Source of the DNA: Deltaproteobacteria bacterium
GTDB taxonomy: Bacteria; Desulfobacterota; Desulfomonilia; UBA1062
Direction: 5' to 3'
Assembly: GCA_029552245.1 (NCBI GenBank)
Contig: JAKPDW010000005.1
Span: forward strand, 62,001 to 126,000
Length of the DNA: 64,000 nucleotides
In this document: piece after piece, positions 20,229 through 33,125 of the stretch
Numbering within the stretch: position 1 is the stretch's first letter
Layout of the letters: each line of letters opens with the position of its first letter
The notes under the pieces: model-generated
The model's database searches: none
Told to the model about the DNA's origin: nothing
Seen by the model: only the letters and a program-made list of their open reading frames with translations
Program-made: the position numbers and the translations under genes

Positions 20229-20498
20229 GTCCGGTCCTTTCCAGGCCGGGGCGATTCGTCGCGCCCCATGCCCTCTATGATGAACCCCACATAGCATCCC
20301 CGGACTGCATCGACAATACGCAATACCCCGGCAGAAAGGGTGCGTGCGGCCGGCGCCCACACCCAGCCGTCCGTCGCGCGCCCTTCGCCGGGGCTGCAGA
20401 CACCCGGGAGCATCCCGGCCCCACCCCTCCGCCTCGGCTGTACATCGGGAAGACGGGCTGGTATCATGCACACCATTCAATGGCGAGGAGGGTGTACC

Positions 20499-21659
20499 AT
20501 GCCGGTGGCTGCTCGAATGCTCGATTTCATGGCCAAGGCTTCCTGGATACGGAAGATGTTCGAGGAGGGAGCGCGCCTCAAGTCCATCCACGGCGCAGAC
20601 AAGGTGTACGACTTCAGCCTGGGCAACCCGGACGTGCCGCCTCCGCCCCGGGTCATCGAGAGCATGTCTGCCCTCGCAAGGGAGTCCTTCCACGGGTACA
20701 TGCCGAACGCGGGCTACCCCGAGGTGCGCAACGTACTCGCCGCACACCTGGGCGGGATCTACGGGGTCGCTCTCACGGGGGAGGAGATCGTCATGACATG
20801 CGGGGCCGGCGGCGCCATGAACGTGGTGCTCAAGGCGCTCCTCGACCCCGGTGACGAGGTGATCGCCCTGGCGCCTTACTTCGTGGAGTACGGTTTCTAC
20901 GCGGACAACCACGGCGGGCGCCTCGTAACGGTTCCCTGCCGCGACGACTTCCTCCCTGACATACGGGCGATCGAGCGCGCAATCGGTCCCTCCACCAAGG
21001 CGATCATCGTGAACTCGCCGAACAACCCCACGGGCAGGGTCTACCCCGAGTCCGTCATCGAGGACCTGGCAAGGCTCGTGAGATCATACCCCCACGTGGC
21101 GGTGATCTCTGACGAACCGTACAGGGCCATCGTCTACGACGCCAGGGAGGTGCCTTCGATCCTCGCGTACATACCCAACTCCATCGTGGTGTCCTCGGCC
21201 TCCAAGGAGCTCTCCCTCGCGGGCGAACGCATCGGGTACATCGCCGTCAACCCCTCCATGGACCGCAAGGACGATCTCGTGGCCGCCATGATCCTCGCGA
21301 ACCGCATCCTCGGGTTCGTCAACGCGCCCGCCCTCATGCAGCGGGTGATCGCTGCGTGCGTCAGGGAGCGGGTGGACACGGGGATCTACGAAAGGCGTAG
21401 GAACACCATGACGAGCGTCATGGACGACACGGGCCTGACCTACGCCCCGCCTGAGGGCGCGTTCTATCTCTTCGTCCGCTCGCCCCTGTCGGACGAGGTG
21501 GCGTTCTGCAACCTCCTGCTCGAGGAGCGCGTGCTCGCCGTCCCCGGCAGGGGGTTCGGCTGGCCCGGCTGGGTGAGGTTCGCCTACTGCGTCGACGAGA
21601 CCGTGATCTTGAACGCCCATGACGGCATCCTCAGGGCGGCCAAGCGGGCAGGGGTCTGA
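20499..21659 (+). CDS. Class I/II PLP aminotransferase
   Basis: 386-aa fold-type I aminotransferase of the aspartate/aromatic type. Landmarks: SLGNPD, AGGAMNVV (cofactor phosphate), NSPNNPTGRVY (N176), SDEPYR (D205), Schiff-base lysine K236 in SSASKELSLAGERIGY with R244, and a C-terminal Arg (VRFAYC) for the substrate carboxylate. Start ATG 20499 follows GGAGG. Substrate is not determinable; an amino-acid/2-oxoacid exchange feeding the IorAB cluster is possible but unproven. It stands alone, convergent with ssb. Confidence 0.9.
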   Translation: MPVAARMLDFMAKASWIRKMFEEGARLKSIHGADKVYDFSLGNPDVPPPPRVIESMSALARESFHGYMPNAGYPEVRNVLAAHLGGIYGVALTGEEIVMTCGAGGAMNVVLKALLDPGDEVIALAPYFVEYGFYADNHGGRLVTVPCRDDFLPDIRAIERAIGPSTKAIIVNSPNNPTGRVYPESVIEDLARLVRSYPHVAVISDEPYRAIVYDAREVPSILAYIPNSIVVSSASKELSLAGERIGYIAVNPSMDRKDDLVAAMILANRILGFVNAPALMQRVIAACVRERVDTGIYERRRNTMTSVMDDTGLTYAPPEGAFYLFVRSPLSDEVAFCNLLLEERVLAVPGRGFGWPGWVRFAYCVDETVILNAHDGILRAAKRAGV

Positions 21660-22160: not shown

Positions 22161-22659
22161 GTGTTCCATCCTCCTTTTCCCGTCACGCAAAGCGAGGGCA
22201 TGGATGATTCCGCTCACCTCCAACCAGGGCGCCAGATCATGGGTTGCCCGTCACGTGTGCGGAAGGCATCATACCTCATCGGCGACCGGTCCACAAGGCG
22301 GGGTTCGTGGGGGCATGAAGCCCCTCGCGGAGGCCGTGGCGTGAGGGTTGCGCGGGGATGTGCACGGTGCGTATCCCGCAACCGTCCGCCTCGGGCGTCT
22401 CCAGCCCGGTAGACGGATGCAGAGCCCTCGTGGGCGAAACGGGCGCGGTACCGGCGTGAGATGGGGATGTCTCCAGCCAGGGAGACGGGCGCAGACCCCT
22501 TCAGGGGGCGCGGGAGACCCGGTCCCCGGCGCGACGACCCCTCACCCCGACGACCATTCCCCACTCTGCCGAGGGGGGCGGCGGGCGGCCAAACACCTGT
22601 CGGGCTCAGATCGTTCCACAACCCGGCGACCATCCCCCTCTCTGCCGAGTGAGCGGGAT
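22161..22659. repeat. Spacer with two pairs of degenerate direct repeats
   Basis: No gene in 499 bp. Repeat pair A: 22397-22428 and 22469-22500, each starting GTCTCCAGCC and containing an AGACGG...GCAGA core; the first forms GTCT/AGAC and the second GTCTCC/GGAGAC hairpins. Repeat pair B: 22551-22573 and 22627-22649, 23 nt, 21 of 23 identical (starts CGACCAT, ends CTCTGCCGAG), 76 nt apart. Nothing recognisable as an IS end or CRISPR. Confidence 0.55.
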
Positions 22660-23091
22660 TCAAGCCTGCCCGCCTTCGGCCACGCGAAGGCGGTACCTCC
22701 CCTTGCCGAGATAGACGAGGTGGTCTTTGCCGTTCCGGTAGTGCTTCCAGGAGGGGTGCTCGGGGGCTGACGCGATCACGGTGGTGGTGAAGCTCTTCTT
22801 GTTCAGGGCGGGGTATTTCTTGACCGCCTGCTTGTAGAGATCCATCGACGAGAAGACTCCGTTTTCCGCCTTCTTGGAGAGCTTTTTCGCGGTCTCGAGG
22901 ACGATGTCGTGGATGGCCTTCCCTTTCCGGCCGGGTTGTTTCTTCTCTTTCTTCAGGAGGAGGGCTGAGGCAGGTATGGCCACGGCGTCGGGCCTGACCT
23001 TGACATCTTTCACAACGATCCTGGGCCTGCCGTTCTTTGTCTCGACGCCGTTATGCACGGTCAAAGAGAATTTCATAGCACGTTTTCTCAT
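22660..23091 (-). CDS. Hypothetical basic protein, possible winged-helix (DUF7669-like) C-terminus
   Basis: 143 aa from ATG 23091 (GAGG ribosome site). Lysine-rich. Residues ~80-135 resemble small winged-helix domains ending in a 'GRYRL' strand (HYRNGKDHLVYLGKGRYRL), similar to DUF7669-type domains by memory. Its upstream region is markedly AT-richer than the surroundings and carries a good promoter, and the codon choice is a little less GC-biased than neighbours, hinting at transfer. Function is unknown; DNA binding is a guess from the fold likeness and charge. Confidence 0.7.
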   Translation of the reverse strand: MRKRAMKFSLTVHNGVETKNGRPRIVVKDVKVRPDAVAIPASALLLKKEKKQPGRKGKAIHDIVLETAKKLSKKAENGVFSSMDLYKQAVKKYPALNKKSFTTTVIASAPEHPSWKHYRNGKDHLVYLGKGRYRLRVAEGGQA

Positions 23092-23120
23092 GATCACCCC
23101 TCTGAATGGTAATTGCAAAA

Positions 23121-23149
23121 TGTATAAAAGGAAATCATGCGGCTTGCAA
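23121..23149 (-). promoter_or_regulatory. Putative sigma70 promoter of the 22660-23091 gene
   Basis: Minus strand TTGCAA (23149-23144), 17-nt spacer, TATACA (23126-23121), about 30 nt before the start codon, in an AT-rich island. Confidence 0.55.
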
Positions 23150-23411
23150 GAAGGAATAATCGGAAAAGTCGGCCGTTTCCGTCTTGACGGCCTCCATGCG
23201 TGGGTTGCGCGCAGCCGCCTTCACCTTCCCGTGAGCCCGGGCGGTCACGCTCCGCGAGCGCCCAGGCGCCCGCAGGAAGGCCTCCCGCCCGCGTGCGGGC
23301 CGACAATCGGCGGGGCCGACGCCTTCATGCACGAGGCCCGTCGGTCTCGATCGACCGGGGGCCCGTTCTCCTTCCGTCCGCCTGCCCCAGCCCGGGAAAG
23401 CCCCCGGGACC
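23150..23411. other. Spacer with a short GC hairpin after larA
   Basis: No gene seen. CCCGGG-aaagcc-CCCGGG (23391-23408) lies directly past the larA stop and may slow or end transcription, but has no T-tract. Confidence 0.35.
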
Positions 23412-24656
23412 CTACACGGGCCTCATGAGGTACTGGACGGTGCCGTCTACGACCACGGCGACCTTCGCGCCGCCCGGGTACTCCTCCTCGAGCCGCTCGA
23501 GCGCCTGGGGCCACGTCTTGACCACGACGGCGTCCGCCTCGTTGCACACCAGGTCGAGGAAGGTCTTGTCAGGCTGCGGGTTGAGAACGACGAGCCTCTT
23601 CATGAGGAGGGGTATGAATCCCGGGGCCCTCGGCGTGTAGTGCCTGCCGCCGTAGCCGCTGCCGATCGCCCTGAACACGTAGTGGGGAACCTGCCCCTCG
23701 GGACTGTCGCAGATGATGACCCCGATCCCCTTGCCTCCCGGCTCCAGGAGCATGACCGGGAACGACAGGGCGATGGCGGCCTCGTTGGCCTTGCCGTAGG
23801 CGTTGGACACCACGATGTCGTAGCCCTTCGCGTACGGTATGCCGTAATGTTCCTTGCCCTCTTCGGCACCCATCGCGTGGGTCACCTTGAACGGGCCTGC
23901 GTAGAGCGACGTGATGCGGCCCCTGCGGTTTACGAGACAGTCGACCTTGAAGTCGAGGCCTACCATCTCGCCGGCTGCGTCGCACTCCGCCCGCATGATG
24001 TTGTTCTCGAAGTTCCCGAGCCCGGTGCGGCCGAAGTCCCTGAACTGCTGGTTGTGGAACTGGTTTATGGACTCGATGCCCGCCACGCCCGGCAGGACGA
24101 TCTTGGCTCCGCCACCGAATCCCACGTGCACGTGCGCCGTGATGCACCCGATGCCGATCTTGAGGTCGCACGCCATGAACTCCCTGTTCACCCACAGTTC
24201 GACGCCGGTGGGGGTCCTCCCCACGTACACCGTGTTCTGGAAGGGGTCGTGGTTGTAGACGGCGTAGTTCTCGACCACGTGGTCCCCGAGCTTCTTCCTC
24301 GCATCGGCCATGCCGTACGCACCGTGGCTGCCGAGGGCCCAGATGAAACGTATCTGCTCCTTCTTCATGCCCGCCCTGTGGAGCTCCTCGAGCACGAAGG
24401 GCACCACGTCCTTGACGGGGGTGGGCCTCGTCATGTCGTCGAAGACGATGACCGCCTGGCGCCTGTTTCGTGCCAGATCCGACAGCCTCGGGCCATCCAC
24501 CGGGTTCTCGATCCTCCTGCGGATCTCCTCCGGGCCCAGGGCGGGACGCTCGAGCCCCGGGCTCGTGAGGACATCCACCTGCCACCGGTCAGGGAACTCT
24601 ATTTCCCGCTCGGTGTTTTCGTACCACAGACGCGAGGGTACAGAGACCTTTTGCAT
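23412..24656 (-). CDS. LarA-like nickel-pincer 2-hydroxyacid racemase/epimerase family protein
   Basis: 414-aa DUF2088/LarA family. Signature FDDMTRPTP (72-80) is present, and the residues that hold the nickel-pincer cofactor and do catalysis in Lactiplantibacillus LarA all have counterparts with identical spacing: H111 (GSHG), H175, K185 (GGGAK) and H201. So it should be an active cofactor-dependent racemase. It is last in a tetR-ior-frhB-lut series, 125 bp after lutC. Substrate could be lactate, but the indolepyruvate-type oxidoreductase in the same cluster makes aryl- or branched 2-hydroxyacids attractive. The cofactor genes larBCE are not in the window. Confidence 0.85.
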   Translation of the reverse strand: MQKVSVPSRLWYENTEREIEFPDRWQVDVLTSPGLERPALGPEEIRRRIENPVDGPRLSDLARNRRQAVIVFDDMTRPTPVKDVVPFVLEELHRAGMKKEQIRFIWALGSHGAYGMADARKKLGDHVVENYAVYNHDPFQNTVYVGRTPTGVELWVNREFMACDLKIGIGCITAHVHVGFGGGAKIVLPGVAGIESINQFHNQQFRDFGRTGLGNFENNIMRAECDAAGEMVGLDFKVDCLVNRRGRITSLYAGPFKVTHAMGAEEGKEHYGIPYAKGYDIVVSNAYGKANEAAIALSFPVMLLEPGGKGIGVIICDSPEGQVPHYVFRAIGSGYGGRHYTPRAPGFIPLLMKRLVVLNPQPDKTFLDLVCNEADAVVVKTWPQALERLEEEYPGGAKVAVVVDGTVQYLMRPV

Positions 24657-24781
24657 GATCTTTCTCCTCCCCGGGGACCACCCCGGCCACGCCCGGCCCC
24701 TTCAAGAGGCCGGCTTTCCGCCTCGCTCACCTGGGGGCCCTTCGAGCCCGGCCGGCATCAGGCCGAAGAGACGGCCGCGAC

Positions 24782-25483
24782 TCAAAGGCCTCCCGCCGGT
24801 TTTCGTTCGCACGTATCGAGAAGGATCACCTCGAGCCTGGCCGGCCCGTGCATCCCCTTGAACTGCACAGCCTGGATGTCGCTCGTGGAACTCGGCCCGG
24901 TGATGAAGCAGACCTGGCCCGCAAACCCTTTGCGGCGGCGCAGCAGACGCTCGAAGGCCTCCTCGTACGACATGACGAGATCGTCGATCGCGACCACGGC
25001 GAAGTGCGCCGGGGCGGCCACCGAGAGCAGCCTCTGGTGGTCGCTGTCGAAAGCCATGACGAGGGTTCCGCTCTCCGCCACGGCGAAGTCGGCAGGCGTC
25101 AGTGCCGCGTCCGCGGTGAACGCGGCTTCCCTCACGGCGCCCCTGTCCCCGAGCCGGGACGAATCGACGACCTCGACGCCGGTCTCCACGGCCCACCGGC
25201 CGAGGTCGAGGGCGGAAACCGCCCCCGAGGCGCAGGCCACCATCCGCCGGATACCTTGGGCCCTCACGGAGGCGGTCAGGACCTGGGCCAGCTCCTGGCC
25301 GCCCGATGCGCGGTGGACCGTCACGCCCTGGGATGACGCCTCTTCGGTGAAGCGCAGGACCATCCCCGCCCTGTCCCCCTCCACGCCCGAGGATGCGGGC
25401 CGTCCCTGTATCGTTCGGTGAGGCCCTGCGCGAGGCGCCCTCCTGAGCAGCTCGAGGATCTCCCTTCCGGCGTCACCGTTCAC
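24782..25483 (-). CDS. lutC: LUD-domain protein, LutC-like
   Basis: 233 aa. The GTG start at 25483 sits in a GTGA overlap with the lutB stop behind GGAGG. LUD fold landmarks: ADAALTPADFAVAESGTLVM and the terminal FITGPSSTSDIQ. LutC is the third subunit of the LutABC L-lactate dehydrogenase type. Its role here is as part of an iron-sulfur 2-hydroxyacid dehydrogenase; substrate is uncertain because the neighbours include IorAB. Confidence 0.88.
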   Translation of the reverse strand: MNGDAGREILELLRRAPRAGPHRTIQGRPASSGVEGDRAGMVLRFTEEASSQGVTVHRASGGQELAQVLTASVRAQGIRRMVACASGAVSALDLGRWAVETGVEVVDSSRLGDRGAVREAAFTADAALTPADFAVAESGTLVMAFDSDHQRLLSVAAPAHFAVVAIDDLVMSYEEAFERLLRRRKGFAGQVCFITGPSSTSDIQAVQFKGMHGPARLEVILLDTCERKPAGGL

Positions 25484-26940
25484 GTCGGGCCTCCCCCGGG
25501 TCCTCTCCCACCCTTGGCTGCATCTCGCCCTTTCCACCACTCGCGGAACGTCCGGGCGGCCACTGCCGGGAGATCCCTGGACGAGAACCATCCGGAGAGC
25601 CCAAACGGGCTTTTCCGCACGTAGCCCCCCTCACCCAGCACGGCGCAGGCGAGCCTCGCCGAACGCACCGCCGCCATCCACGCCGCCGGGTGCGAGGCGC
25701 ACAGGCCCAGCACGCCGAGGGCGGCTCTCTCAGCGGCGCCTTGTGCACCTGGAGCCGCCTGAGCGCCTGCTTCCACCTCCCGCTGACGGAAGACCCTGAT
25801 GAGCTCCGGGTGGTCGATGCCCGCCGGGCACACCTGCCTGCACGCACCGCACAGGGTGCACGCGCGGAAGAGGTCGGAAGTGCGCTCTATCCCGTGCAAG
25901 AGCGGCGACAGGACGGCCCCCATCGGGCCCGAGTACACCCCCCCGTAGGGGTAGCCGCCGATCCTCGCGTACACGGGGCAGGTGTTCAGGCAGGCGCCGC
26001 ACCTGATGCACCTGAGCACCTGCCGGGCGAGGGGGTCTTGGTAGATCGCGGAGCGCTTGTTGTCCACGATCACCACGAAGAGTTCCTCCGGGCCGTCCTT
26101 CTCCCCCCTCCCCGCCGGTCCCGAATCGAACGTCACGTAACCGGACATCTTCTGCCCGGTGCAGTTCCTGCACAGGACCCTGAGGAGGTGCAGCGCGTCT
26201 TCGAGCGTGGGCACCACCTTCTCGATGCTCATCACGGCCACGAGGGTCCTCGGGGAGGACTTGATCATGCGGATGTTCCCCTCGTTCTCCACGTTGACCA
26301 GGGTGCCGGTGGAGGCTATCGCCATGTTGACGCCCACGACGCCCATGTCCAACGCCCTGAACTTCTCCCTGAGGTGGGCCCTGACCGCCTTGCCGAGCCG
26401 CACAGGGTCGGAGTCGGGCTCGCGAATGACACCCTTGGCGAAGAACGCCTCGCCGATCTTGTCCGGGGGTATGTTGATCGCGGGCCCCACGAGGTGAAAG
26501 GGGGGGAGCCCCATGGTCTGGGTGACGAACTCTCCGAGGTCCGTCTCGAACACTTCCACGCCGCTCTCTTCCAGCGCCCTGTTCAGGCCGATCTCCTCGG
26601 TGATCATGGACTTGCCCTTGGCCACGAACCTCACCCCGCGTTCGCGGGCGAGCCCGACGATCTGGTCGCACGCGTGCCGAGCGTCACGAGCCCACAGGAC
26701 CACGGCCCCGTTTTCCCCTGCGGCGCGGGCGAACTCCTCCAGGAGTTCTGGCATGCGCTCGACGGCGTCGCGACGTATCGCGCGGGAACGGTCGAGGGCC
26801 TCCTGGGGGTCCTCGAAGGTGGACATGCCGGCCGAGCGCAGGATCGCGAACCCCTCCGAGAGGAGCTTCAGGAAGATCCGGCTGTATTCATTTCCAAGCT
26901 CCCTCGAGGCGATCTCCCTGAACCCGGAAGGAGAGCTCAT
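25480..26940 (-). CDS. lutB: LutB-like iron-sulfur LUD protein
   Basis: 486 aa. N-terminal LUD domain (~50-300; VAKGKSMITEEIGLN, ASTGTLVNVENEGN), then a ferredoxin domain with two [4Fe-4S] motifs CIRCGACLNTCP and CTLCGACRQVCP, and a DUF3390-like C-terminus. ATG 26940 overlaps the lutA stop (ATGA), and its own stop overlaps lutC. Electron-carrying subunit of a LutABC-type dehydrogenase; the tail is Gly/Arg-rich (GGRGPGGGPT). Confidence 0.9.
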   Translation of the reverse strand: MSSPSGFREIASRELGNEYSRIFLKLLSEGFAILRSAGMSTFEDPQEALDRSRAIRRDAVERMPELLEEFARAAGENGAVVLWARDARHACDQIVGLARERGVRFVAKGKSMITEEIGLNRALEESGVEVFETDLGEFVTQTMGLPPFHLVGPAINIPPDKIGEAFFAKGVIREPDSDPVRLGKAVRAHLREKFRALDMGVVGVNMAIASTGTLVNVENEGNIRMIKSSPRTLVAVMSIEKVVPTLEDALHLLRVLCRNCTGQKMSGYVTFDSGPAGRGEKDGPEELFVVIVDNKRSAIYQDPLARQVLRCIRCGACLNTCPVYARIGGYPYGGVYSGPMGAVLSPLLHGIERTSDLFRACTLCGACRQVCPAGIDHPELIRVFRQREVEAGAQAAPGAQGAAERAALGVLGLCASHPAAWMAAVRSARLACAVLGEGGYVRKSPFGLSGWFSSRDLPAVAARTFREWWKGRDAAKGGRGPGGGPT

Positions 26941-27686
26941 CGGCCACTCCCCCTTTCCATGGCCTCGTCGAGGAAGACCGCCAGGTGCATGACCCTCTTT
27001 TCCGGGTGGTGCCTGTGGAGGTAGCCGCCGATGTTCAGGAGGCATCCGGGCTCGTTCAGCACGAGCACATCCGCGCGGCTGTCCAGGAAGGACTGGACCT
27101 TGTCCTTGAGTATCGCCACGGATATCTCCGGGAACCTCACGGAGAATTCCCCCCCGAACCCGCAGCAGGAGTCGGCCCCGGGCATCTCCACCCTGCGGGG
27201 ACCTGCCGCGGCGTCAACGAGCATCCTGGCCTGGCGCGACACGCCGAGCCCCCTGAGCACGTGGCACGAATCGTGGTAGGTCACCGTGGCGTCGAACGAC
27301 CCTCCGGGATCGGTCACACCCATGACATCCACCAGGAACTGGCTCAGCTCGAACACCCTGGGTGCGAGATCGAGGGCTCGGGCCCGCCAGAGGCTGCCCG
27401 CCGGGAAGAGGTCGGGATAGCAGCTCCTGACCATGTGCACGCACGACCCGCTGGGGCTCACGACGAAGTCGTCCTTGGAGAAGATCTCGATGAAGCGGCA
27501 CGCGGCCCGTCTCGCCTTCTGCGCGTGCCCGGCGTTGAGGAAGACCTGCCCGCAGCACGTCTGGCTCTCGTGGTACACCGTTTTCACGCCGAGTCTCTCG
27601 AGGACCCTGCAGGTTGCGACGCCTATCTCCGGGAGAAGGACATCGACGGTGCACGGGATGAAGAGGGAGACCTCCATGGTCCTCAT
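26937..27686 (-). CDS. lutA: LutA-like CCG-domain iron-sulfur protein
   Basis: 249 aa with two CCG (cysteine-rich) domains: C-T-V...TCCGQVFLNAGH in the first half, then HDSCH...SCCGFGGEFSV in the second, the heterodisulfide-reductase/LutA signature. ATG 27686 overlaps the frhB stop (ATGA), so the FrhB-like protein and LutA are translationally coupled, an arrangement suggesting a physical complex. An alternative start is ATG 27677. Confidence 0.9.
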   Translation of the reverse strand: MRTMEVSLFIPCTVDVLLPEIGVATCRVLERLGVKTVYHESQTCCGQVFLNAGHAQKARRAACRFIEIFSKDDFVVSPSGSCVHMVRSCYPDLFPAGSLWRARALDLAPRVFELSQFLVDVMGVTDPGGSFDATVTYHDSCHVLRGLGVSRQARMLVDAAAGPRRVEMPGADSCCGFGGEFSVRFPEISVAILKDKVQSFLDSRADVLVLNEPGCLLNIGGYLHRHHPEKRVMHLAVFLDEAMERGSGR

Positions 27687-28825
27687 GCCCCCTGCTGCAA
27701 GGCGGAAAACATCGGGTCGTTCGGGTCGAGGTACACGAGGTCTCCTTCCCGGCCGGACTTGAGCACGAGGTTTCTCCTCGCCCGCGCCCTCTTCTCCAGG
27801 GACCCCTTCTTGAGCTCGGAGACCACCTGGGACGGGATCTCCCTGCATTCCAGCAGGCGCCTCTTCCGGGCGAGATCCAAAAGCTCCCTCGCCCGCCGAG
27901 TGCGCACGATGACGGTGTTCCAGCCCCTCGCCGACTCCCAGTCCTCCTCGAGCAGCGCGCTTCCCACGGATATGTCGCTGAACTCGGCGGTGAGATCGAA
28001 ACAGTAGTGGCACCCCCCCCGTATGCAGCGCTTCGCCTCTTCGAGCCCTATGTCAACGGTCCTCTCGCCGGTGAAGAGCTGGAGCACCCCGTACTGCTTG
28101 GGCGGGATGTCCATGCCCCGAACGAGGTACGGATCGACACTCTTGCGAGCCAGCTCCGAGAACCTGTCGCGGCTGAAGGCCCAGCTGCAGAACAGCCCGA
28201 TCACGAGCGACGGCCTTTGTGCAGGAGGGTTGTTCTCGTCTTCGGGGAGAACGCGCATCTTCGCGTACGCGAGGGCCTGGCAGGGAAGGGCCACCGCGCC
28301 CAGGTTCGCGAAACCGTCCCTGACAGCCCTGTTGAAGGCCGCAACGCTCGGGGAGACCACGAAGGAACTCCCGGCGTGCGAGACCACCCGTTCGGGATCG
28401 GTCACCACGACCCCGAACGGGTCCATGGCATCCTTCCTGTCGGTCACGACCGCGGCATCGATCAGGCCCTCCTTGAGCGCGAGGGACAAGAGCGTCGAGA
28501 CCGTGCCCCCGTGTTGCGCTCGGCTCCTCACCTTCTCCCGCGTAGCCCTGGCAAGGTAGATCGCTTTGACGGCCCCCAGCTCGGGCGTAGTGTCAGCCGG
28601 TTCGAACAGCGCCTTCCTGATGCCGTCGAGGTCGGCCGGGGTCCTCGGGCAGAAGTCGAAGCACCTCCCTTCTTCTCTGTCGCAGGGAAACAGGGTCACG
28701 ATCCTGTCCCTGTAAAACCTCCTGTACGGGCAGAGCCCCACGCACGAACCGCAGCCCGTGCAGAGCTTCGCATCCACCACCAGCCTGTCCAATTCCCTCT
28801 GTCCTCTCTGCACCCTCTCCTCCAT
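27683..28825 (-). CDS. FrhB/FdhB-family iron-sulfur flavoprotein
   Basis: 380 aa: an N-terminal single ferredoxin motif CTGCGSCVGLCP (22-33), then the Coenzyme F420 hydrogenase/dehydrogenase beta-subunit N and C domains (HGGTVSTLLSLALKEGLIDAAVV, and CIRGGCHYCFDLTAEFSDISVG). Members bind FAD and [4Fe-4S] and pass electrons between ferredoxin and a partner, not only F420. Coupled by 4-nt overlap to lutA and 140 bp downstream of iorB, it probably links the LutABC-like dehydrogenase to ferredoxin. Confidence 0.85.
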   Translation of the reverse strand: MEERVQRGQRELDRLVVDAKLCTGCGSCVGLCPYRRFYRDRIVTLFPCDREEGRCFDFCPRTPADLDGIRKALFEPADTTPELGAVKAIYLARATREKVRSRAQHGGTVSTLLSLALKEGLIDAAVVTDRKDAMDPFGVVVTDPERVVSHAGSSFVVSPSVAAFNRAVRDGFANLGAVALPCQALAYAKMRVLPEDENNPPAQRPSLVIGLFCSWAFSRDRFSELARKSVDPYLVRGMDIPPKQYGVLQLFTGERTVDIGLEEAKRCIRGGCHYCFDLTAEFSDISVGSALLEEDWESARGWNTVIVRTRRARELLDLARKRRLLECREIPSQVVSELKKGSLEKRARARRNLVLKSGREGDLVYLDPNDPMFSALQQGA

Positions 28826-28964
28826 GGCAAGGAGCCCCTGAAGCCGTCATTCCCCAGCACGACCGCGCCGCAACCCGGCAGGGGCTCGACGCTCTGTACC
28901 CTTGAACGAAACCCTCCCGGCCGCTGGTCGTCTCATCGGGGAAGGGTCCCGGTCCTTCCCGTCA

Positions 28965-29606
28965 TCACCATGCCTTGCCCCCCATCGCCTGTTCGGCGAG
29001 ACGGACCCCTGCATCAAAGGCCTCGAGGTTGAGTTCCGCCGTGGCCGGTGCCATCTCCGCCGAGACCAGGCCCTCGAAATCCGCCCTCGTGAAAGGCACG
29101 AGCCCCGTGGCCTGGAGGGCCCCGATCATGATTACGTTCTGGAGCACGGGGTTCCCGAGCCTCAGGGCCTCGGACGTCGCTCCGATCATCACGTGAGCCC
29201 TGCAGAGACCCGCTATCGTGCGGTCTATCTCCTCGATCCCGGGGTACTCGACCTCGCCTGCGATCACGCGGACGGGATACACAGGCCGGTCGTTCACCAC
29301 GCAGCGGGTCTCTGGGTGCCCGTAGGAGGCGAGGACCCTTATGGTCTCGGTCGGTTCCAGGGAGACCACCACGTCGGCCCTGCACTTCGGCACCTGGGGA
29401 CTGTAGGTGTGACAGGCCGAGATCCTGACGTGGCTCATGACCGAGCCCCCCCTCTGGGAGGCGCCGAAGGTCTCACCGACGGTCACGACGTACCCCTTGG
29501 CGACCAGCATGGAGGCGATGAGCCTCGATGCGGTCACGTTGCCCTGCCCCCCCACACCGGTGACTATGACGCTGAACGGATCGCGGCTCAATGTCCTACC
29601 GGCCAT
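28965..29606 (-). CDS. iorB: Indolepyruvate:ferredoxin oxidoreductase beta subunit
   Basis: 213 aa, gamma-type 2-oxoacid:ferredoxin oxidoreductase domain: IVTGVGGQGNVTASRLIA at the start, GETFGASQRGGSVMSHVRI typical of IorB, and MIGATSEALRLGNPVLQN later. Starts 3 bp after the iorA stop, so it is cotranscribed with it. Together IorAB decarboxylate aryl 2-oxoacids to aryl-acetyl-CoA and reduce ferredoxin. Confidence 0.94.
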   Translation of the reverse strand: MAGRTLSRDPFSVIVTGVGGQGNVTASRLIASMLVAKGYVVTVGETFGASQRGGSVMSHVRISACHTYSPQVPKCRADVVVSLEPTETIRVLASYGHPETRCVVNDRPVYPVRVIAGEVEYPGIEEIDRTIAGLCRAHVMIGATSEALRLGNPVLQNVIMIGALQATGLVPFTRADFEGLVSAEMAPATAELNLEAFDAGVRLAEQAMGGKAW

Positions 29607-29609
29607 CGT

Positions 29610-31547
29610 TCACCCAGCCTCCTCTTTCCTGATCGCCCCCGAGGGGCAGACGCTCGCGCATACCCCGCACCCGGTGCAGATAACCTCGTCGATGCGGGCG
29701 ACCTTCGCCCGGGCGTCCCAGAAGAGGCCCGGGCACCTGAAGACGCGGGTGCACATCCTGTTGCAGCCGCACCTCGAACCTATGCAGGCGGCCTCGTCCA
29801 CGCGGATCTTGAACCTTTTGCCGGCGCGCTTGTGGGGGCTGAGGGCGCACTCCTGCCTGAGGATGGCCACCCGGGGACCCGATTCCTCGAGCATGGACAG
29901 GAGGGTGCGCTCGGTCCCCTCCACCTCGAAGGGGTCGCATACCACGACCTTCGCGCCCATGGCGCGGCATATGGCCTCGATGTCCATGGGTCGAGCCCTC
30001 TTGCCCGAGGCGTCCTCACCGATGCCCGGGTGGGGCTGGAAACCCGTCATCGCCGTGCCGCTGTTGTCGAGCACCACGAGCATCACGTCAGCCTCGTGGT
30101 GTACCGCGTCCACGAGCGCTGGCATCGCCGCGTGAAAGAAGGTCGAGTCGCCGCACACGGCCACCACCGGCTGGTCGAAACCGAAGGCGCCGAGCTTACC
30201 GAAACCTGATGCGAGGCCGATGCCCGACCCCATGCAGAAGGCCGTCTTGACGACCTCGAAGCCTGCCGGCAGAATCCCCATGGTGTAGCAGCCCACGTCC
30301 CCGCAGACGAACCCGTTCTTCCCCTTGAGCGCGAGCGCGTTGTGCAGGCAGTAGAACGACGCCCTGTGCGGGCAGCCGGCGCAGAAGGTCAGCTCCCTGC
30401 CGGGTGCGGTGAACGTGGCGGCGAGGGCCCTGTCCGCGTAGTCCTTGGGTGCCGGCTCGTAGTTCACCCCCAGGATGCGCGCCAAGGCGCCTATCACCAC
30501 GTCGCAGTTGAGCTCACCGGCCGGGGGCACGTGGCCGGAGCGCTTGCCGTAGAACACCTTCGCGCCCGCTATGGAAGCCTGCTCAGCTGCGAGCACCTTC
30601 ACGGCGTCCTCCAGGAAGTCCTGCGGCTCCTCGACCACGAGCACCTCGCCCGCCCCAGCCAAGTGCCTCAGGACGAGCTGCTCGGGCAGGGGCCACGTGG
30701 TCCCGAGCTTGAGCAACCCCACCCTGTCCCAGGCGCCGAGGATCTCGATCGCCTCCCTGGCGTACAGGGCGCAGGCGCTCGACGACACGACGAGGAGGCG
30801 GGGCTCTAAGGATCCCGTGTAGCTGTTGAACGGGGACTGGTCGAACATCCGGGATGCCTGCCTCAGCCGCCCCTGCTGCACGGTCCTGGCATAGGTCACC
30901 GCGCCGGGGCCGGTTATCATGGGCCCCCTCTGGAAGTCGAGCAGCGAGCCCGTGCACTCGAAGTACGCCTTCTTGCCATTGCCGGAAAGCGCCCCGAGGG
31001 TCACGGTGCCGCTCGCGTGGGACATGCGCGTGACGCTCCTCAGGATGACGAAGGTCTTGAGTTCCTCCGAGAGCTCGAGCGCCCAGCGCGTCATGTCCTT
31101 GGCCTCCTGGAAATCCCCGGGCTCCAGCAGGGGGACCTCGAGCATCCTCGCGAAGAACCTGGCATCCGCCTCGTTCTGGCTCGAGAGCGCCCCTGGGTCC
31201 TCGCACACGATGACGGCCATGCCGGCCCTCACCCCGGTGCCCGTGAGGTGGAGGAGGAAGTCCGATGCCACGTGCATGCCGTTCTGCTTCATGGTGCAGA
31301 TAGACCTGAGCCCCGCGAACGACGCCGCTGCGGCCACTTCGGCGGCCACCTTCTCGTTCACCGCCCACCTCACGTGGAGCCCGGCCCGGTCAGCCACGCG
31401 CGAGAGGTTCTCGATGATCTCGGACGAAGGCGTCCCCGGGTAACCGGCCGCCACCGAGACCCCGGCCTCCAGCGCCCCCCGCGCAATGGCGGCGTTCCCC
31501 ATGAGGAGGCACCTTGTCCCCTCAGCGACTTCCATGAGATCGGTCAT
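29610..31547 (-). CDS. iorA: Indolepyruvate:ferredoxin oxidoreductase alpha subunit
   Basis: 645-aa thiamine-diphosphate enzyme. In order: N-terminal 2-oxoacid:ferredoxin oxidoreductase alpha domain (VAAGYPGTPSSEIIE), TPP-binding domain with FCAGCPHRASF and CGDSTFFHAAMPALVDAV (Mg-TPP GDS...N), and a C-terminal ferredoxin region (CTGCGVCASVCP plus a Cys-rich CIGSRCGCNRMC). ATG 31547 has a strong AGGAGGT site. Fifty bp after tetR on the same strand. Typical substrates are indolepyruvate, phenylpyruvate and hydroxyphenylpyruvate. Confidence 0.95.
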   Translation of the reverse strand: MTDLMEVAEGTRCLLMGNAAIARGALEAGVSVAAGYPGTPSSEIIENLSRVADRAGLHVRWAVNEKVAAEVAAAASFAGLRSICTMKQNGMHVASDFLLHLTGTGVRAGMAVIVCEDPGALSSQNEADARFFARMLEVPLLEPGDFQEAKDMTRWALELSEELKTFVILRSVTRMSHASGTVTLGALSGNGKKAYFECTGSLLDFQRGPMITGPGAVTYARTVQQGRLRQASRMFDQSPFNSYTGSLEPRLLVVSSSACALYAREAIEILGAWDRVGLLKLGTTWPLPEQLVLRHLAGAGEVLVVEEPQDFLEDAVKVLAAEQASIAGAKVFYGKRSGHVPPAGELNCDVVIGALARILGVNYEPAPKDYADRALAATFTAPGRELTFCAGCPHRASFYCLHNALALKGKNGFVCGDVGCYTMGILPAGFEVVKTAFCMGSGIGLASGFGKLGAFGFDQPVVAVCGDSTFFHAAMPALVDAVHHEADVMLVVLDNSGTAMTGFQPHPGIGEDASGKRARPMDIEAICRAMGAKVVVCDPFEVEGTERTLLSMLEESGPRVAILRQECALSPHKRAGKRFKIRVDEAACIGSRCGCNRMCTRVFRCPGLFWDARAKVARIDEVICTGCGVCASVCPSGAIRKEEAG

Positions 31548-31596
31548 CGCTACCTCCTGTCATCCTGCGGCGAGACAGCCGCACCTCATCATCCGT

Positions 31597-32277
31597 TCAG
31601 CGGGCCGCCGCCCTGTCTCTGGGTGTCATCCTGGCCCTTATGTCCTGCACGAAGCGTTCGTGAACATGATCGACGAGATCGTCCACGAGCGACAAGGGAT
31701 CTTCGTGCATGTAGGTGAGCAGGGTGTTGTTGATGCCTGCGATGAAGCCGTGCAGGGTGCTCCACACGCACACGAGCAGGAACCTCGCGTCTTGTTCCGT
31801 GATCGTGTAACCCTCACCGGCGCACTCCCTGATGACCCCCGTGACCAGCCGGGCCACGCCGAGAGCGGTCTCGAGCTCGAGCCGGGCCACCTCTTCCACG
31901 GGCGTACCCAGGTAGTCGTTGTACTTGGGCACGTGCCACGTGAACATGAGGTTGTAGAAATGCGCACGGTGCAGACCGAAGTCCACATACGCCCTGGCGA
32001 TCCCCCTGAGCCGCCCGAAGGGGTCGCCGCCTCGCGAGCACTCTGCCTCGACGAGCCCGTACAGCTCCTTGAACCCCTCTATGAGGATACAGAGGTAGAG
32101 CTCGTCTTTGTCGTGGAAATAGGTGTAGAGCGTGGGCGGGGACACCTTCAGTTCCCTTGCCAGCCCCCTCATGCTGAAATCCCGGTAGCCCACCCGGTTC
32201 ATGAGCTCGACCGCTGTCTCGAGGATTTTCTTCTTGACGCTCTCGATCTGCTCGGGTGTTCGCTGTGCCCGGGGCAT
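31597..32277 (-). CDS. TetR-family transcriptional regulator
   Basis: 226 aa from ATG 32277 behind AAGGAG. HTH in the first 60 residues: FSMRGLARELKVSPPTLYTYFHDKDELY. The C-terminal ligand domain has no obvious subfamily. Directly upstream of iorA on the same strand (50 bp), with a perfect 23-bp palindrome overlapping its own -10 box; therefore it likely represses itself and the downstream ior-frhB-lut-lar genes until an inducer binds. Confidence 0.93.
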   Translation of the reverse strand: MPRAQRTPEQIESVKKKILETAVELMNRVGYRDFSMRGLARELKVSPPTLYTYFHDKDELYLCILIEGFKELYGLVEAECSRGGDPFGRLRGIARAYVDFGLHRAHFYNLMFTWHVPKYNDYLGTPVEEVARLELETALGVARLVTGVIRECAGEGYTITEQDARFLLVCVWSTLHGFIAGINNTLLTYMHEDPLSLVDDLVDHVHERFVQDIRARMTPRDRAAAR

Positions 32278-32359
32278 GCACGCTCTCCTTGAGGGCCTTC
32301 CCGCCTCGAGGCCGGCCGACCGAACCGCCGACTCCCGCGAGGGCCTTCCGGATGTCTTT

Positions 32360-32397
32360 ACATGTGTTATATTAACACATGTCACCTCTACGGCCAA
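32360..32397 (-). promoter_or_regulatory. Promoter with overlapping TetR-type operator
   Basis: Operator 32360-32382: arms ACATGTGTTA and TAACACATGT, perfect 10-bp inverted repeat around TAT. On the minus strand the -10 TAATAT (32374-32369) lies in its centre, with -35 TTGGCC (32397-32392) 17 nt upstream. Binding there would block RNA polymerase. The start codon of tetR is about 83 nt downstream. Confidence 0.75.
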
Positions 32398-32683
32398 GGG
32401 GATCCTCGGTCACTCCACTGGGTGCTGTACCTGTACTGACATACGGCGGAGCCCCTCGGTCGGAGGGGACTCGGAACGGGGCGCAGGTGATCACGCGGTC
32501 TTCGACTGCGGCGCACCTATCCACACGAGGACTTCAAGGGCCATCCGACAGCCCTTCAACGATTGGGACAGGCACCGCCCCCGCGGCCCGGAGGCACCAC
32601 GCCGCAGGCAGGGACGGCTGGCACGGCCGCCTCCCGCCCGCGCCCATCCAGGGCAGCCCTGCCGAGAGGGGGAAGGTTCCCCC

Positions 32684-32959
32684 CTACTTGTTCACCAGGG
32701 CCTTGAACTCCTTGCCCGCCTTGAAGCGCGGCGCCTTGCACGCCTTGATCTTGATCTTCTCGCGGGTCCTCGGGTTCATACCCTGCCTGGCCGCCCTCTT
32801 CACCACATCGAACGTCCCGAACCCGACGAGGGTGACCTTCTCGCCCTTCTTGAGCGAAGCCGATATGGCGTCGGTCATCGCGTCTACTGCTGCCTGAGCG
32901 GCAGACTTGGAGATTTTCAACTTGCCGGCCACGACCTCAACAAGACCCGTCTTCGTCAT
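32684..32959 (-). CDS. HU family DNA-binding protein
   Basis: 91-aa histone-like protein: MTKTGLVEVVAGKLKISKS start, GFGTFDVVKRAARQGMNPRT arm region and FKAGKEFKALVNK end. Bends and compacts DNA as a dimer. ATG 32959 is behind AGGAGG; a good promoter lies ~60 bp upstream. Monocistronic. Confidence 0.96.
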   Translation of the reverse strand: MTKTGLVEVVAGKLKISKSAAQAAVDAMTDAISASLKKGEKVTLVGFGTFDVVKRAARQGMNPRTREKIKIKACKAPRFKAGKEFKALVNK

Positions 32960-33019
32960 ACTTCCCTCCTCTTATCTGTTGGGAATGTACTGAACGCCGC
33001 AGTTCAAGATCGTGCAAAT

Positions 33020-33047
33020 AGTATAATCGACCGCATTCCTGTTTCAA
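33020..33047 (-). promoter_or_regulatory. Putative sigma70 promoter of the HU gene
   Basis: Minus strand TTGAAA (33047-33042), 16-nt spacer, TATACT (33025-33020), ~60 nt before the HU start. Confidence 0.6.
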
Positions 33048-33095
33048 GCCTTTTTTGATGCCCGCCTTCCGTTTCCACCCGTGACGACGAGCTTC

Positions 33096-33125
33096 TTGAT
33101 AACTTATTATCGCTGGTGTTATGAT
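33096..33125 (+). promoter_or_regulatory. Putative sigma70 promoter of fic
   Basis: TTGATA (33096-33101), 18-nt spacer, TATGAT (33120-33125), ~37 nt before the fic start. A small inverted repeat GATAA-CTTA-TTATC (33098-33111) overlaps the -35. Confidence 0.55.

Follow-up and report, generated by a model that had tools for sequence, protein, structure and literature searches.

Do eight neighbouring genes that bring together a 2-hydroxyacid dehydrogenase, a 2-oxoacid oxidoreductase, an FrhB-type electron carrier and a 2-hydroxyacid racemase encode one catabolic route, and which of the enzymes does the carrier serve? The question is raised by a stretch of 64,000 nucleotides from an uncultured, anaerobic Deltaproteobacteria bacterium of the UBA1062 lineage (assembly GCA_029552245.1, contig JAKPDW010000005.1, positions 62,001 to 126,000; hereafter the window), in which the genes tetR-iorA-iorB-frhB-lutA-lutB-lutC-larA all lie on the minus strand at positions 32277-23412. 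A first-pass annotation made from the sequence alone had named these families and their common direction, which coordinates, strand and domain content confirm. We hold, with slightly better than even confidence, that the locus is a TetR-controlled operon for 2-hydroxyacid catabolism, probably of acids with hydrophobic or aromatic side chains, in which LutABC would feed IorAB and its partner FrhB, and LarA would give access to the other enantiomer. The families, the gene order and its conservation, the relocation of larA and the cofactor machinery are established by the sequence, and from them we infer the reactions, the substrates, the electron acceptor and any electron transfer to ferredoxin.

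A conserved operon from tetR to lutC

The unit from tetR to lutC is a genuine, conserved catabolic operon. The gene series goes beyond chance because two congeners, G004 and G002, have the genes from tetR through lutC in the same order, with main subunits 52-70% identical to those of the window, and another congener, G003, has a truncated copy. The G002 contig stops inside lutC and the G003 contig is truncated within frhB, with frhB-lutABC still present, while G001 is without frhB and without a full-length lutB. In the wider family, lutBC-frhB-iorA are arranged together in G006 (locus L011), and both lutABC and frhB-iorAB are present in G009 and G010 on separate contigs. Across 15 family genomes, which are not independent of each other, FrhB and LutB are both found in seven, one of them alone in two (G005 and G008, one each) and neither in six; the window lutB is the single full-length LutB found in its own genome. 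The annotation had treated all eight genes as one series and proposed conservation of their order in relatives as the check. Its series holds behind one TetR from tetR to lutC, but larA falls outside, and we rejected larA as a member of the conserved unit because neither G004, G002 nor the truncated G003 has it right after lutC, as far as the contigs extend there.

The junctions within the window are tight in part. Overlaps of 4 nt, earlier described as many, occur at three of the seven junctions (frhB/lutA, lutA/lutB and lutB/lutC), and the remaining pairs are separated by 49 nt (tetR-iorA), 3 nt (iorA-iorB), 139 nt (iorB-frhB) and 125 nt (lutC-larA). No minus-strand terminator-like site was found in 22600-33100, and the RNA fold z-scores are near 0 in the lutC-larA and iorB-frhB gaps.

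The regulator gene (31597-32277, minus strand) encodes 226 aa with TetR_N (PF00440) and PF13305 domains and has a 61-62% identical counterpart at the same place in G004 and G002; its start at ATG 32277, which has a ribosome site, is preferred over TTG 32397. Since a palindrome-like site precedes tetR in all three intact operons (the window species, G004 and G002), control of the operon by TetR is likely, and the site itself is a candidate operator. In the window it is a perfect 10-bp palindrome with a 3-nt centre, ACATGTGTTA-ATA-TAACACATGT (32360-32382), expected 0 times in the window, and in G004 and G002 a shorter related site with an invariant TAAT-N-TAACA stands at the corresponding place. 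No second copy of the palindrome with up to three mismatches was found across the 3.27-Mb genome, and a TetR regulon beyond the operon was rejected on that ground.

The frhB-iorAB cassette and its electron acceptor

The frhB gene (27683-28825, minus strand, 380 aa) encodes an iron-sulfur flavoprotein of the FrhB/FdhB family with an N-terminal 4Fe-4S domain (Fer4) and both the N and C domains of FrhB_FdhB (PF04422, PF04432) with their conserved cysteines. It had been taken to be coupled to lutA. A profile search with an FrhB alignment through 84,980 species genomes found 80 loci, which belong to Desulfobacterota, Chloroflexota (Dehalococcoidia for the most part), Bacillota and Spirochaetes, and an IorA gene, almost always adjacent, accompanies frhB in 73 of them; the seven loci without IorA include several truncated contigs. 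The coupling to lutA thus gives way to one with iorAB: judged by its neighbourhoods, frhB-iorA(-iorB) is a conserved cassette and FrhB is predicted to be primarily a partner of Ior. FrhB scores have a bimodal distribution within Desulfobacterales: the strong cassette-type form is present in about 30 of 128 genomes, and others have a weaker paralogue. Three loci in which frhB stands beside glcD(F), with no adjacent ior (L044, L046 and L075), keep alive a role of FrhB as a 'bridge' to a hydroxyacid dehydrogenase.

The partner enzyme has the complete domain set of its class (TPP-binding, POR_N, 4Fe-4S and POR; PF02775, PF01855, PF00037 and PF01558). Its alpha subunit IorA (29610-31547, minus strand, 645 aa), which carries the TPP and 4Fe-4S domains, matches TIGR03336 best, with 570 bits against an equivalog cut-off of 651. 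The beta subunit IorB (28965-29606, minus strand, 213 aa, PF01558) has the indolepyruvate oxidoreductase beta family among its two best NCBIfam matches, all below their cut-offs, with 144 bits against 206 for TIGR03334. As the indolepyruvate models are matched below their cut-offs in both cases, we call the pair an Ior-like 2-oxoacid oxidoreductase. The cassette IorA is 42% identical to the canonical IorA of its own genome, and in a quick tree with that protein and Desulfococcus IorA3 as the only outgroup, both are separated from a single branch that holds the FrhB-linked IorA proteins, within which a few long-type IorA proteins without a neighbouring frhB are nested.

Subunits of the FrhB type are best known from F420 metabolism and normally known from methane-making microbes, and CofH is required for F420 synthesis. 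No CofH over the cut-off was found in 41 genomes, and none whatsoever in G004, which is 98% complete and has an intact operon; what this search hit strongly in the window's own genome was MqnC/MqnE, two enzymes of the menaquinone pathway. Because of these two results we rejected F420 as a likely acceptor, and the acceptor of FrhB is probably another one. The best solved relatives by profile match are subunits of F420-reducing CODH and formylmethanofuran dehydrogenase (Fwd; 8riu_B and 8rja_E), and in Ca. Ethanoperedens these FrhB-type subunits draw electrons from enzymes for which ferredoxin is the acceptor commonly assumed (8RIU, 8RJA; PMC11493965). By analogy, the window FrhB would take its electrons from Ior. 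In a Chloroflexota metagenome-assembled genome (L127, 1669-8018), frhB-iorA-iorB is followed by 261-aa MvhD-like and 554-aa HdrA-like proteins, recognized by eye from their first residues, hinting that electrons of the cassette can reach Hdr-type complexes. A bolder and improbable proposal is that FrhB serves as a confurcation hub, at which electrons of low potential, supplied by IorAB, would join those of higher potential from LutABC (or GlcDF) and leave with them at an intermediate potential, e.g., to NAD+. If true, an F420-free anaerobe would oxidise aryl-lactates via one shared carrier, and both the role of the FrhB family and the type of confurcation would be new.

Hydroxyacid genes, larA and the direction of the pathway

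The hydroxyacid dehydrogenase of the operon is encoded by three adjacent minus-strand genes in the order of the LutABC system: a lutA-like gene (26937-27686, 249 aa) with two CCG domains (PF02754), whose product aligns with the C-terminal portion of LdhH; a lutB-like gene (25480-26940, 486 aa) with LUD, two 4Fe-4S (Fer4_8) and LutB_C parts, at 382.8 bits below the equivalog cut-off of 444.8 (TIGR00273); and a lutC-like LUD gene (24782-25483, 233 aa, PF02589) with a GTG start at 25483. Genes for 2-hydroxyacid metabolism also adjoin the cassette elsewhere. In the scan loci, minus the genus, 16 such genes are found within 6 kb of frhB, 14 of them on its strand, and 0 farther away (762 vs 250 kb; binomial p 0.018). 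In Desulfocicer vacuolatum DSM 3385 (L213), a cultured sulfate reducer with an independent linkage of lut and frhB-ior, one strand carries a sigma-54 activator, frhB, iorAB, two Fe-ADH genes, an aldehyde:ferredoxin oxidoreductase, lutABC, an SDR gene and a second iorAB. LUD proteins follow iorB in two Dehalococcoidia loci (L081 and L083), glcD-glcF adjoin frhB in L041, L046 and L215, an NAD-type 2-hydroxyacid dehydrogenase is near the cassette in L090, L094 and L107, and larA is near it in L064, L072, L090 and L131; L090 contains a TRAP permease, the NAD-type dehydrogenase, frhB-iorAB, larA, a thiolase and ECH. The association is real and confined to a minority of loci. The single route from hydroxyacid to 2-oxoacid to acyl-CoA that had been proposed fits these observations, because non-homologous dehydrogenases (LutABC, GlcDF and the NAD type), and likewise LarA, are found repeatedly next to frhB-iorAB, although such a route is not conceptually undescribed (PMC5109826, PMC4481167). 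With its anatomy corrected, this pathway reading is plausible and has more support than the earlier reader could know.

The larA gene (23412-24656, minus strand, 414 aa, Lar_N PF09861) encodes a LarA-like nickel-pincer 2-hydroxyacid racemase. The annotation rightly gave H111, H175, K185 and H201 as intact; together with R77 they match the cofactor and catalytic residues H108, H174, K184, H200 and R75 of LarA1, and all five are invariant across 17 aligned homologues. The cofactor genes larB, larC and larE are three adjacent genes of the same genome, all above cut-off. With 202 bits against the lactate racemase cut-off of 460, and well below the cut-off of every named LarAH model, the protein is placed by its sequence in an uncharacterised LarA subgroup, of which the 17 members were aligned. 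F348 aligns, in a low-confidence C-terminal alignment, at the position of W358 of LarA1, where F or Y marks hydrophobic 2-hydroxyacid racemases according to a residue rule (PMC11770544), which suggests such a racemase as far as the weak alignment there allows. The same genome also encodes a LarA-like protein of another kind (L049:7853-9415, contig C75), which belongs with the LarAH14/15/16 family, at 462 bits against a cut-off of 740.

Orthologues of the window LarA, with 72-78% identity, are found in most of the family, where larA usually lies next to genes for a pair of HadB/HadC-like 2-hydroxyacyl-CoA dehydratase subunits, their activase, an SDR and a CoA-transferase. The window's own genome keeps this dehydratase cluster on contig C53 (L216, compared with L190 and L226), with larA gone from its slot between the HadBC-like dehydratase and membrane pyrophosphatase genes. 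The same slot is without larA in G004 (contig C34), where larA follows lutC on the same strand at a distance of about 9 kb, while in G002 larA is still inside the cluster. By this comparison of gene positions, larA is a recent arrival that moved toward the lut-ior operon in the window species and one relative, G004. The relocation suggests that the oxidative operon and the dehydratase pathway share one 2-hydroxyacid, split into an oxidative and a reductive branch. L105 (559-10243) would set the two branches side by side, since HGD-D subunit genes and frhB-iorA-iorB share a strand there, along with genes for an acyl-CoA dehydrogenase and a 569-aa protein. Eleven HGD-D genes (2-hydroxyacyl-CoA dehydratase/benzoyl-CoA reductase-like) are present in the window's own 3.3-Mb genome, on contigs C2, C53, C63, C70 and C95.

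In the pathway that we favour, LutABC would oxidise a 2-hydroxyacid, probably the L-form, to the 2-oxoacid, and IorAB, a paralogue distinct from the genome's canonical Ior, would convert the 2-oxoacid to acyl-CoA by oxidative decarboxylation. FrhB would be the dedicated iron-sulfur/FAD carrier for this type of Ior, passing its electrons to a soluble acceptor other than F420 and possibly also accepting electrons from the hydroxyacid dehydrogenase. LarA would interconvert the enantiomers, so that both are usable, and would tie the oxidative branch to the reductive one, whose dehydratase genes lie elsewhere. The operon probably serves to convert hydroxy-acids, aryl-lactates for instance, to energy-rich thioesters, and an aryl specificity is plausible. 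Several observations weigh against this pathway: many relatives have LarA but neither frhB nor lut, the 125-nt gap between lutC and larA could accommodate a promoter of its own, the scores of the Ior and Lut proteins fall below the curated equivalog cut-offs, and the enrichment of 2-hydroxyacid genes near frhB is modest and partly phylogenetic. The neighbours of the cassette are, moreover, mostly others (ABC/TRAP transporters, CoA-transferases, thiolases and kinases), and the substrates of the cassette are therefore broader than the products of 2-hydroxyacid oxidation. A class I aminotransferase gene (PRK06836-type, 520 bits, cut-off 376) on the opposite strand near the operon (20340-21659, plus strand) could supply it with 2-oxoacids, with no evidence of a linkage.

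The shortfall of IorA and IorB under the indolepyruvate cut-offs also leaves room for an ordinary operon for lactate or another short 2-hydroxyacid, of the luo type, in which the Ior paralogue would act on pyruvate or a branched 2-oxoacid and aromatic compounds would play no part. We give this explanation a minor but appreciable chance, as L-lactate is the best-known LutABC substrate and the luo operon of Desulfovibrio joins D- and L-lactate dehydrogenases to PFOR in enzymes that co-migrate (PMC4481167). However, the Ior pair is nearest to indolepyruvate-type, not pyruvate-type, oxidoreductases, the usual neighbours of LarA match the HadB/HadC (2-hydroxyisocaproyl-CoA dehydratase) models best, and LarA reaches less than half of the lactate racemase cut-off. 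The pathway might also run in reverse, with ferredoxin reduced by Ior passing electrons through FrhB to LutABC and the 2-oxoacid being reduced to the 2-hydroxyacid, in an internal, redox-balanced disproportionation continued by LarA and the dehydratase cluster. The customary place of larA beside dehydratase, activase and CoA-transferase genes, in a cluster that the genome retains, favours this direction, as do the HGD-type dehydratase genes that adjoin frhB-iorAB in L105, all in all a Stickland-like fermentation layout; LutABC is known as an oxidising enzyme, however, and the GlcDF found beside the cassette are oxidative flavoenzymes, and we regard the reductive direction as unlikely. Equally doubtful is that ior-frhB and lut are independent functions under a shared regulator, with larA a passenger on its own promoter: lutABC and frhB-iorAB do lie apart in G009 and G010 and larA is separable, as its distance from lutC in G004 illustrates, but the three overlaps from frhB through lutC, the gene order conserved in the genus and the renewed linkage of lut to ior-frhB elsewhere speak for a joint function.

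Comparison with known systems

The logic of the favoured pathway is not new. Desulfococcus multivorans can use phenyllactate for growth, has TRAP uptake and forms one Ior specifically during growth on phenylpyruvate, and its proposed route, phenyllactate to phenylpyruvate to phenylacetyl-CoA via Ior (PMC5109826), makes its phenylacetate/phenylpyruvate cluster with IorA3B3 similar to the window operon, for which the same sequence of 2-hydroxyacid, 2-oxoacid and arylacetyl-CoA is proposed. In the putative D. multivorans genome (G095, 4,455,399 bp), however, the iorAB at about 2.79 Mb shares no more than 34% identity with that of the window and, unlike the window operon, has neighbours that code for an ApbA-type reductase, an activase, an HGD protein and a pair of CoA ligases; no cassette-type frhB or lutABC was found in the 60 kb read around it. 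The identity and the other neighbours led us to reject the Desulfococcus phenylpyruvate Ior as the window cassette. The luo operon of Desulfovibrio vulgaris (PMC4481167) likewise joins a 2-hydroxyacid dehydrogenase and a 2-oxoacid oxidoreductase in one unit; it differs in its PFOR and its lactate substrate, whereas the window operon is Ior-like and has no permease among its eight genes, and the abstract on the luo operon does not mention FrhB or LarA. The Lut proteins resemble LutABC, LldEFG and LdhH in domain make-up and in the order lutA-lutB-lutC, and differ from them in that LutB lies below the LutB cut-off and lut is attached to ior-frhB. LarA shares the catalytic and cofactor residues of the hydrophobic 2-hydroxyacid racemases (PMC11770544), the F at the W358 position being a tentative likeness.

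In the open-access set searched, no description of the Ior-FrhB or the Lut-Ior-FrhB combination was found, by which absence is not proven, and relative to this literature both the cassette of FrhB with Ior and the joining of lutABC to it appear new. Found in four phyla or more, one lineage among them having no detected F420 synthesis, the cassette points to an unassigned route for electrons in the anaerobic breakdown of amino acids and hydroxy-acids, for which the window operon suggests concrete substrates; its presence in cultured Desulfocicer vacuolatum makes it testable. A parallel to it is the CODH and Fwd of Ca. Ethanoperedens, where an FrhB-family subunit with a ferredoxin domain docks on a ferredoxin-type enzyme and accepts its electrons (PMC11493965); those systems are archaeal and F420-linked, whereas the partner of the window FrhB would be Ior, in a bacterial lineage.

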